A DNA stretch of 64,000 nucleotides, taken from assembly GCF_001701045.1 (NCBI RefSeq), contig NZ_CP016757.1:1791501-1855500 (forward strand). Reading direction: 5' to 3'. Numbering within the stretch: position 1 is the stretch's first letter; every line of letters starts with the position of its first letter. The notes beneath the pieces were generated by a model, which made no database searches, was not told where the DNA came from, and worked only from the letters and a program-made list of their open reading frames with translations. Of this stretch, positions 10,595-14,122 are shown piece by piece. The DNA comes from Cloacibacillus porcorum (GTDB taxonomy: Bacteria; Synergistota; Synergistia; Synergistales; Synergistaceae). The position numbers and the translations under genes are program-made.

Positions 10595-13258
10595 TCAGTT
10601 GGTCAGGCTACTGAGGTTTTCCTTCATGCGCTGAGCCTTTGTCTCGTTGTCGGCAAGGTTGCCCTTCTCTTTGTCGATGACTTCGGCGGGCGCCCGCTCG
10701 ACGAATTGTTTGTTCGCAAGCTTTATCTTGCTCTTTTCGATATCCTTCTCAAGTTTGGCGATATCGTTTTTAAGGCGCTGGATCTCTTTGTCCACGTCAA
10801 GCAGGTCGCCCACCGGCAGGTATACCTGGACGTCGTCGAGCACCGAGGCGAGGCTTCTCTCCGGTTTCGCGGCGCCCTCTTCGGTGAAGGTGACCTTTTC
10901 CACCTTTGTGAGCAGCTCTATCTGCTTTTCGCACTCTTTGAGCAGCGCGAGCTTCTCTTTACTGTGGACGGCGAGCGTTACGCCGGGGATCATCTGCTGC
11001 GGCGCGATGCGGGCCTCGGCCCTGAGGTTGCGTACCGCGCGGACCACATCCTGAATGAAGTCCATCTCCGCGAGCACCTTTTCGTCGACGGCGACGCGCG
11101 GCGCGGGCCAGCTGCTGTGCTCCACGAGGTCGGTGCCGAAGGGGAAGGCGTGCCAGAGCTCCTCAGTTACGAAGGGAATGATCGGGTGGAGCAGCTTGAG
11201 GACGTCTTCAAATACGGCGAGCAGGACGGCCTGCGTCGTCCGGCGGCGCGGCTCTCCCTCGTCGCCGCGCAGAGCCGGCTTTGACAGCTCAAGGTACCAG
11301 TCGCAGAGCTCGCCCCAGGTGAAGTCGTACATGAGGCGCGCCGCTTCGCCGAAGAAGTATCCGTCAAGCAGCCGCGTCATCTCCGCCGAAACCTGCGAGA
11401 TGCGGTTGAGTATCCATTTGTCGTGGAGCTGAAGCTCCCTTTCGTCTATCTCCTGTCCCGCCGCGGCGTCTTCAAGATTCATGAGCGCGAAACGGCTCGC
11501 GTTCCAGAGCTTGTTCATGAAGAGGCGGTATGTCGAAATGCGGTCGGTCGAGAGGAAGATGTCACGCCCTTGTACCGTGAGCGCCGCGAGCGTAAGGCGC
11601 AGCGCGTCCGCGCCGTAGTCCTTCACGATCGTCAGCGGGTCGATGACGTTTCCGCGCGACTTGCTCATCTTCTGCCCCTTTTCGTCGCGTACAAGGGCAT
11701 GGATGTATACGTCGTGGAAGGGCACTTCGCCCTTCATTCCCTCAAGCCCGAACATTATCATCCTGGCGACCCAGAAGAAGATGATGTCAAATCCCGTCAC
11801 AAGCACGGAGGTCGGATAGAATTTCTTCAGGGTCTCTGTTTCGTCGGGCCAGCCCATCGTTGAGAAGGGCCAGAGTCCGCTTGAGAACCAGGTGTCGAGC
11901 ACATCCTCGTCCTGGCGGAGTTCGGTGTTGCCGCACTTCGGACACTTGTGCGGCGCGTTCTCTTCGACGATGACTTCACCGCATTTATCGCAGTACCACG
12001 CGGGGATACGGTGTCCCCACCAGAGCTGGCGCGATATGCACCAGTCGCGTATGTTCTCCATCCACTGGTAGTAGACGTTGGTCCACTGGTCGGGAACGAA
12101 CTTTATCTTTCCGGCTTCAACGGAGGCTACCCCGGCGTCCGCGAGGGGACGCGTGCGGACGAACCACTGTTCCGAAAGGTAGGGCTCGATCACGGTATGG
12201 CAGCGGTAACAGTGCCCTACAGAGTGGCGCAGGTCGGTGACCGAGAGCAGCACGCCCTCTTTTTCAAGGTCGGCGACGATCGCGCCGCGCGCCTCAAAGC
12301 GGTCCTGCCCCTGATATTTGCCGGCGTTCTCGTTCATTACGCCCTTATCGTCAATGACCTGTATCTGTTCGAGATTGTGGCGCTGTCCGACAAGGAAGTC
12401 GTTGGGGTCGTGCGCCGGGGTGATCTTGACGCAGCCGGTGCCGAACTCGGGGTCGACCATGTTGTCCTCAATGACGGGGATGACGCGTCCCACGAGAGGT
12501 ACGACGACCTTTTTGCCTACGAGGTGGCGGTTCTTCTCGTCGCGCGGGTGTATCGCGATAGCGCTGTCTCCGAGGATCGTCTCTGGGCGCGTCGTCATGA
12601 CGATGACGCCGCCATCTTCGCCGTCGGCGAACTTGTATGAGACCTCATAGAACTTGCCGTCCATCTCCTCGTGCTCGACCTCAAGGTCGGAGAGGGCCGT
12701 CTGGCAGCGCGGGCACCAGTTTATGAGGTATTTCCCGCGGTATATGAGTCCCTTTTTATAGAGCTCCACAAATATTTTGCGGACGGCGCGCGAAAGCCCC
12801 TCGTCCATCGTGAAGCGCTCGCGGTCCCAGTCGCAGGAGGCGCCGAGCTTTTTGAGCTGGTTTATGATCGTGCTGCCGTACTGCTCTTTCCACTCCCAGA
12901 CCTTTTTGACGAACTCTTCGCGTCCAAGGTCGTGACGTGATATGCCCTCTTTGGCGAGCGAACGCTCCACGACGTTCTGCGTGGCGATACCCGCGTGGTC
13001 GGTACCTGGCAGCCAGAGCACCTCGTAGCCCTGCATTCTCTTTGTGCGGCAGAGGATGTCCTGCAGCGTATTGTCGAGCGCGTGGCCGACATGGAGCGAG
13101 CCCGTCACATTGGGCGGCGGTATGACGATTGAAAATGGCGGTTTTGGTGATGACGAATCTGCCTTAAAAAGCCCCTCAGCTATCCATTCCGCGTACCATT
13201 TGTCTTCAATGGGCACGGGATCATAGCTCTTGCCTAACTGCACCTTCTCGGAATCCAT
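10595..13258 (-). CDS. valS: Valyl-tRNA synthetase
   Basis: An 887-residue class I synthetase. The HIGH-type motif is in PPNVTGSLHVGHALDN and the KMSKS motif in GQKMSKSRGNVIDP. The editing domain lies between them and the anticodon-binding domain follows. The last ~65 residues form the coiled coil that is typical of ValS and grips the tRNA elbow. GGAGG precedes the ATG. It is the first gene after a 240-base structured gap separating it from engB, so it probably has its own control. Confidence 0.97.
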   Translation of the reverse strand: MDSEKVQLGKSYDPVPIEDKWYAEWIAEGLFKADSSSPKPPFSIVIPPPNVTGSLHVGHALDNTLQDILCRTKRMQGYEVLWLPGTDHAGIATQNVVERSLAKEGISRHDLGREEFVKKVWEWKEQYGSTIINQLKKLGASCDWDRERFTMDEGLSRAVRKIFVELYKKGLIYRGKYLINWCPRCQTALSDLEVEHEEMDGKFYEVSYKFADGEDGGVIVMTTRPETILGDSAIAIHPRDEKNRHLVGKKVVVPLVGRVIPVIEDNMVDPEFGTGCVKITPAHDPNDFLVGQRHNLEQIQVIDDKGVMNENAGKYQGQDRFEARGAIVADLEKEGVLLSVTDLRHSVGHCYRCHTVIEPYLSEQWFVRTRPLADAGVASVEAGKIKFVPDQWTNVYYQWMENIRDWCISRQLWWGHRIPAWYCDKCGEVIVEENAPHKCPKCGNTELRQDEDVLDTWFSSGLWPFSTMGWPDETETLKKFYPTSVLVTGFDIIFFWVARMIMFGLEGMKGEVPFHDVYIHALVRDEKGQKMSKSRGNVIDPLTIVKDYGADALRLTLAALTVQGRDIFLSTDRISTYRLFMNKLWNASRFALMNLEDAAAGQEIDERELQLHDKWILNRISQVSAEMTRLLDGYFFGEAARLMYDFTWGELCDWYLELSKPALRGDEGEPRRRTTQAVLLAVFEDVLKLLHPIIPFVTEELWHAFPFGTDLVEHSSWPAPRVAVDEKVLAEMDFIQDVVRAVRNLRAEARIAPQQMIPGVTLAVHSKEKLALLKECEKQIELLTKVEKVTFTEEGAAKPERSLASVLDDVQVYLPVGDLLDVDKEIQRLKNDIAKLEKDIEKSKIKLANKQFVERAPAEVIDKEKGNLADNETKAQRMKENLSSLTN

Positions 13259-13299
13259 TTCCGTTTCCTCCTCAATGGGCCGGCCTGGTGGCGCGGTCC

Positions 13300-13480
13300 G
13301 TATCTATTCCCAGTCCGTCAGTCCGGCCGTTCCGGCACCTCTGGATTGGGTGCCGATGATTATATATGCCATCCGCGTCGCGGTCCGATTTGACCTGTGG
13401 CTCCAACGTATTTATATACGCCTGCGCCCCAGGCCAAACCGAACCGCTTAGCGGCTGACACATCTAATCATCGGAATAGG
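13300..13480 (-). promoter_or_regulatory. Structured leader upstream of valS
   Basis: The gap between engB and valS holds nested inverted repeats. An outer 10-bp perfect pair lies at 13353-13362 and 13465-13474 (CCGATGATTA). Inside it, a 12-bp pair lies at 13386-13397 and 13430-13441 that is complete only if two G-U wobbles are allowed, and these wobbles form on the minus strand. A further CGTAT hairpin is nested inside. A GGCACC/GGTGCC hairpin follows towards valS. CGGACCGCG occurs twice. The strand of the wobbles matches valS transcription, suggesting an RNA leader. It does not clearly match a T-box (no TGGNACCGCG). A TATAAT within it could also be a promoter. Confidence 0.5.
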
Positions 13481-13501
13481 CGTTTGGTTTTGCCTGCCTT
13501 T

Positions 13502-14122
13502 TTATCTTGCCTCCTGCGCGTCAAGCTTGATTATCTCGGAGAGGACCTCTTCGATGCCGATGCGCAGCTTCTCCATCTCGGCGTCGTTGACGCCGGAGGT
13601 GACGAAGGGCGGCAGAATAGAATCGATTCCGCCGCGCATTATCGTATTATACTGCCCTTTTCGCTTTCCGGGAGATATTTTATCTCCCTTGGTAAAGACT
13701 ACGATACGGGGCATGTCCATCCTGTCGAGCCAGGCAGTGAGCTCGTTGTCGTTTGCGAGCGGCCCGTGGCGGAAGTCTATCAGGTGCACGACGTAGGATA
13801 TCGGACGGTCCTGGCTGAAATAGTCGTCTATCAGCTTCCACCAGCTTTTGCGCTCGTCCATTCCGCGCGCCGCGTAGCCGTAGCCGGGCAGGTCGACAAG
13901 CGAGAATTTATGAGGCTCCGCGTCGACATTGTAAAAATTGATGCTGCGCGTCTTTCCGGGCTTGGAGCTTACCTTAGCGAGCTTCCTGCCGAGCAGCGCG
14001 TTTATCAGCGTCGACTTCCCTACGTTTGAACGCCCGACAAAGACGATCTCGTGAGGTCCCGGCGGCGGCAGCTGCTGTTTATTGAAAGCCGTGCAGAACA
14101 GCTCTGATTTCCATACACTCAT
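13502..14122 (-). CDS. engB: Ribosome-biogenesis GTPase EngB (YsxC/YihA)
   Basis: A 206-residue TrmE-Era-EngA-like GTPase of normal length needed for late 50S subunit assembly. The G1 loop is GRSNVGKST, G2 is in KPGKTRSINFY, G3 is DLPGYGYA and G4 is TKGD. The ATG starts one base after the lon stop. The lon-engB order is widely conserved. Confidence 0.95.
   Translation of the reverse strand: MSVWKSELFCTAFNKQQLPPPGPHEIVFVGRSNVGKSTLINALLGRKLAKVSSKPGKTRSINFYNVDAEPHKFSLVDLPGYGYAARGMDERKSWWKLIDDYFSQDRPISYVVHLIDFRHGPLANDNELTAWLDRMDMPRIVVFTKGDKISPGKRKGQYNTIMRGGIDSILPPFVTSGVNDAEMEKLRIGIEEVLSEIIKLDAQEAR

Follow-up and report, generated by a model that had tools for sequence, protein, structure and literature searches.

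A Dispersed Hairpin and a Conserved Leader in the Gap Upstream of valS in Cloacibacillus porcorum

The gap between engB and valS in Cloacibacillus porcorum raises the question of whether a very stable, RNA-like structure in front of a synthetase gene is the regulator of that gene. The window analyzed here is a stretch of 64,000 nt from contig NZ_CP016757.1, and positions refer to this window unless stated otherwise. An initial annotation, made from the sequence alone, had proposed a structured RNA in this gap that is transcribed with valS, possibly as a sensor of aminoacyl-tRNA or translation. Very likely, two things meet in the gap: a dispersed, MITE-like hairpin (13353-13474) and a conserved translational leader of valS (13262-13350). 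The features are listed in Table 1.

Table 1. Features of the engB-valS region in the window
Feature	Position	Strand	Basis
engB, upstream gene, same direction as valS	13502..14122	-	Open reading frame; G1 motif upstream of valS in relatives
Long hairpin, copy of a dispersed, probably mobile family	13353..13474	-	Arms 13465-13474 and 13353-13362; fold, further copies, covariation
Whole leader, covariance-model match reaching into the valS start	13251..13358	-	Model R2, G000:C1:1804751-1804858, E 1.1e-26
HP1, covarying outer stem with nearly invariant CGG-[AG]ACGG-CCG top	13309..13350	-	Conserved in 22 valS leaders
HP2, covarying lower stem with GCC-ACCA-GGC top	13278..13299	-	Conserved in 22 valS leaders
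valS Shine-Dalgarno, GAGGAGGAA	13265..13273	-	Sequence and alignment; conserved among relatives
valS, valyl-tRNA synthetase, 887 aa	10595..13258	-	Open reading frame; N-terminus matches in 53/53 family genomes

The long hairpin and its relation to valS

The minus strand of the gap folds into a hairpin of 122 nt and about 50 bp, which is bigger than the initial annotation described. From base to apex, its helices are an outer one of 10 bp (CCGATGATTA/TAATCATCGG), exactly as claimed, and then 8, 4, 18, 3, and 7 bp, separated by symmetric 1x1 and 3x3 loops. The proposed 12-bp helix is real pairing, but it is not a separate element and lies within the 18-bp helix. The conserved loops are UAA/GAC and GGA/GGA, which we take to resemble RNA loop motifs such as UAA/GAN. 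The fold energy is -78.9 kcal/mol for the minus strand compared with -53.5 kcal/mol for the plus strand, making the minus strand about 25 kcal/mol more stable. For 13280-13500, the minus strand has a z score of -8.43 and the plus strand one of -4.82, and none of 200 shuffles matched the native fold. Stable nested helices are thus present and stronger than initially stated. The asymmetry between G-U pairs on the minus strand and A-C mismatches on the plus strand was also confirmed, with 43 Watson-Crick pairs, 7 G-U pairs, and no A-C in this copy when read as the minus strand.

Copies of the hairpin were found elsewhere. With BLAST, the region matches six places in its own genome, and copies occur in 4 of 53 family genomes, three of them beyond this one. 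A covariance model, with the top candidates scored, places the hairpin in 17 of 188 Synergistota genomes, often several times over and with up to 18 matches per genome, some of them as tandem pairs. In an alignment of 19 full copies, 97.2% of cells are paired, and 19 pairs have changes in both partners compared with 7.9 in shuffles (0/500). These copies hold 102 G-U pairs and 11 A-C, although the copies are related and the count is not one of independent events. Point mutation alone should give about equal numbers of the two, so the excess of G-U suggests that the fold of the minus (motif) strand is kept. The family is dispersed, non-coding, and multi-copy, as expected of MITEs.

Several copies stand out in their placement or structure. 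One copy in this genome (L005) and one in the sister species G014 (L012) lie between the 16S and 23S genes, adjoining the apparent start of the 23S rRNA. Eight near-identical hairpins in G003 (L045, L054, and L070-L075) are each found at the 3' end of an apparent autotransporter gene, and seven of the eight have the same downstream sequence. Secondary hairpins of 53-60 nt are seen within internal loops of copies in G014 (L022, L026, L028, L030, and L032) and G044 (L033 and L291-L293). They end in CATCA or similar, sometimes with several per copy, as a modular structural growth.

We compared the engB-valS gap across 21 family genomes. The hairpin core is present in the gap of this genome only and is missing in the 20 others. 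What the sister species retains in its gap is a remnant of 52 nt, whose locus-specific arms (CCGATGAT) are the same as here and still pair, and the insertion therefore probably predates the split of the two species. The hairpin would have inserted after engB before that split and been carried along between engB and valS. The hairpin at valS is a carried-along copy of a dispersed repeat family and not the regulator of valS. Both results that the initial annotation had named as counting against it were thus obtained: apart from the remnant, relatives lack the hairpin in this gap, and it belongs to a repeat family. The strand-specific, RNA-like fold proposed initially appears to be selected, as indicated by the excess of G-U over A-C and by covariation, but the hairpin itself is not the leader of valS. 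A direct role for it in valS control, whether as a leader or as a sensor of aminoacyl-tRNA, is very unlikely. In favor of such a role are its place immediately 5' of the leader in the valS-sense strand and the strand-specific selection on its pairing. Against it, further copies sit at unrelated places, and relatives lack the hairpin in the same gap, with only the shortened remnant in the sister species. The case is a caution: a hairpin can be very stable, covary, and occupy a leader region without being the regulator of the gene in question.

A conserved leader directly upstream of valS

Between the long hairpin and valS, the minus strand holds a leader of two hairpins directly 5' of the gene, partly beyond the region 13300-13480 covered by the initial annotation. 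A conserved, regulatory-looking leader for valS does exist, in line with the proposal, but it is a different structure from the one described. Its hairpins, HP1 and HP2, are joined by a short A-rich stretch, usually AATAGA, and finish just before the Shine-Dalgarno sequence. In most of the 21 genomes compared, two hairpins and then GAGGAGGAA are found upstream of valS.

A covariance model, R2, was built from 20 leaders. It gave exactly one match per genome in 22 Synergistaceae genomes from 11 genera (E 3e-12 or better), and all 22 matches abut valS. A further Synergistota match, in G060 (E 1e-3), lies inside an apparent coding gene. No leader was found in G001, G003, G019, and some other family members, and 249 genomes of another phylum gave three weak matches, none of them at a valS. 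Among the 22 leaders, 42 cells changed on both sides compared with 14.4 in shuffles (0/500), and the covariation score was 0.317 compared with at most 0.070 with slid partners, in an alignment fitted to the model, which favors this result. A structure-blind alignment missed the outer stems, whereas the model-guided alignment shows them and leans to the model. Folded alone, the leader of this genome is predicted to be only modestly stable (z -1.89; others up to -4.22), and folding it as part of the whole gap alters its predicted structure.

Known classes of synthetase leader were considered. Rfam gave no match for the hairpin or the leader in 13250-13520, and only spurious miRNA models appeared at permissive thresholds. 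The absence of a T-box core noted in the initial annotation holds, as there is no RF00230 match at valS. The genome has eight T-box matches, none near 1804750-1805000 in contig coordinates. A T-box was therefore rejected for the valS leader, and the eight matches elsewhere suggest that valS is handled differently from the genes that carry them. A leader peptide with valine codons was also rejected, since the short open reading frames, read from the sequences, vary from species to species, with none shared by all. No earlier report of the motif was found in the open-access literature. The leader appears to be previously unlisted.

As judged from sequence comparison, the leader most likely acts in cis as a translational operator that tunes the synthesis of ValRS. 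Its site beside the Shine-Dalgarno sequence, the lack of a terminator-like T run after the hairpins, and its strict gene specificity point to translational control. The leader would act at the level of valS translation and would sense ValRS, tRNA-Val, or the valine supply. Like T-box leaders, it precedes an aminoacyl-tRNA synthetase gene, though it lacks an RF00230 match. In E. coli, the translational operator of thrS, also a synthetase gene, has stem-loops ahead of the Shine-Dalgarno sequence, and those of the valS leader are placed in the same way.

Another possible explanation, which we consider doubtful, is that the leader serves as the binding site of a different protein or responds to valine as a riboswitch. 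A compact, covarying, gene-specific structure beside the ribosome-binding site is consistent with either. However, two simple hairpins offer no apparent ligand-binding core, and nothing points to another protein. A more specific proposal is that the leader mimics tRNA-Val and is bound by ValRS, like the thrS operator. Autoregulation through such mimicry is attractive because the loop regions of both stem-loops upstream of the Shine-Dalgarno sequence keep the letters of the valine anticodon, [AG]AC in HP1 and CAC in HP2, by inspection. On the other hand, the loops are of 5 and 4 nt, which does not match the 7-nt geometry of an anticodon arm, and one member (L360) lacks the letters in the HP2 loop; we regard this mimicry as rather unlikely. 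If the leader is a translational operator, a non-T-box valS leader in genomes with T-box matches would represent a second kind of synthetase-gene control in one organism.

The hairpin core in other phyla

The conserved apical core of the long hairpin is GGAGGCGUAY...RUACGUYGRRG. The corresponding DNA pattern, GGAGGCGTAY...RTACGTYGRRG, has at least 112 matches across the genome collection, and those listed include Nitrospira, Deltaproteobacteria, Rokubacteria, Planctomycetota, Clostridia, Treponema, and others. At least 31 pairs form around the apex in 86 of the 108 matches with enough context, compared with 28 of 324 controls with shuffled flanks. Covariation across phyla was seen in pairs outside the apex pattern, and 69 of 72 sequences retain one G-U pair of the apex; because some of the apex is set by the search pattern, independent evidence comes only from the outer pairs. 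The motif strand is the more stable strand in 75 of 86 cases. In 12 chosen genomes, a looser pattern had 1-19 exact matches each, and the reversed pattern had none.

In the other phyla, the hairpin tends to have one orientation toward neighboring genes, with its end touching a stop codon. A gene ends 40-80 nt from the hairpin center on one particular side in 34 of 65 intergenic copies, whereas random intergenic points in the same loci would give 3.9. Counts for the remaining three gene arrangements are near expectation (7, 6, and 2 compared with 4.9, 3.7, and 3.1). Genes were called as long open reading frames, so these counts are approximate. The more stable strand of the hairpin is antisense to the gene whose stop codon it abuts. 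The window copy breaks this rule, as it is in sense with both of its neighbors. Neither a simple MITE nor a terminator explains how a repeat present in many phyla combines strong stop-codon polarity with selection on one strand.

The family may correspond to MRSC-65-2, with which it was compared by description only. According to Narunsky et al. (2024; PMC11109978), MRSC-65-2 is a single long covarying stem with more than 20,000 representatives in diverse phyla, has dozens of copies per genome, and is thought to be mobile. The hairpin family is likewise a single long covarying stem with many copies in diverse phyla. The conserved repeat stated there for MRSC-65-2 is UYCCGG (PMC11109978), whereas our consensus lacks UYCCGG and conserves the apical core given above. 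The source genome of MRSC-65-2 is probably Thioalkalivibrio, judging by the shared number 65. No report of the core letters in context was found in the open-access literature.

How the hairpin may move

The transposon-like ends on some copies make a MITE-like, non-autonomous mobile element the most likely identity of the long hairpin. Reading by eye, we found that many copies in G044 and G014 begin with about GGACACACTGATTAAT and finish with TAATCAGTGGTTCC, and many are flanked on both sides by 4-bp repeats such as CTAA or CTAC. About 100 such ends are present in G044, and some of them enclose other hairpins. In Nitrospira, a second type (B) has CCCGCATTATTCATGA ends with CTAG or TTAA flanks, and elements with these ends occur both with and without an exact core match. 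These observations fit MITE-like elements that share one core but use different ends. The hairpin would move as a MITE, while selection would keep the folding of one strand, either as RNA or as single-stranded DNA.

Some results are not in line with a plain MITE. Polarity relative to genes is not predicted for one, and the stretches read gave no autonomous element with matching ends and no obvious transposase between such ends. The window copy has no recognizable outer inverted repeat and no target duplication, and no terminal inverted repeats or target-site duplication were seen for the Nitrospira type A. The plasmid and phage collections gave no match, which argues against an origin from either. 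In comparison with the ERIC/RU-1 and Correia/NEMIS MITEs, the family is similarly non-coding, repeated, intergenic, and roughly 100-160 bp in size with a long hairpin, and some copies carry what look, by eye, like terminal inverted repeats with 4-bp repeats beside them. It differs in its core, which is conserved across phyla while the outer arms differ by genome, and in its stop-codon polarity and strand-specific pairing.

Polarity could instead reflect an integron-like or other single-stranded DNA recombination site, in which the antisense strand folds, a recombinase acts on it, and the site sits at a stop codon. The excess of copies abutting stop codons, the greater stability of the motif strand, and the several hairpin subfamilies within one genome would all suit such a site. 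We nevertheless consider it improbable, since no cassette arrays were seen in the stretches read, no linked recombinase was found, and the window copy is in sense with its genes. In addition, conservation in attC sites falls on core-site boxes at the base of the folded structure, whereas here it falls on the apex.

Mobilization by a REP-associated (Y1) transposase, as for REPINs, is very improbable and was rejected: a 311-aa Y1 transposase is present in some hairpin-bearing genomes, but hairpin-bearing G014, G043, G044, G009, and G010 have no Y1 match, no hairpin model match lies around the Y1 genes tested, and in G007 the transposase has repeats of its own, GGGGTCAGACC, in front of it. Like REPIN/REP elements associated with RAYTs, the family consists of repeated intergenic hairpins in many genomes, but its hairpins are much longer, are conserved at the apex, and do not flank the tested Y1 genes.

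A more far-reaching reading of the whole locus is only a tentative proposal. A core that folds as a single strand would have spread through bacterial phyla by combining with different transposon ends and inserting at stop codons in one polarity, and one such copy would adjoin a ValRS-responsive translational operator of an undescribed type that Synergistaceae carry.

Three minor observations concern individual loci. In G007 (L220, 906-1472), arrays of GGGGTCAGACCTACACATTTGAC repeats precede the Y1 transposase gene. The Deltaproteobacterial copies L117 and L137 carry a small GC-rich hairpin (about CCCGGCCTGCGCCGGGGCAGGC) within an internal loop. At least two hairpin types occur in Nitrospira genomes (L254-L273), with the same apex and different ends.
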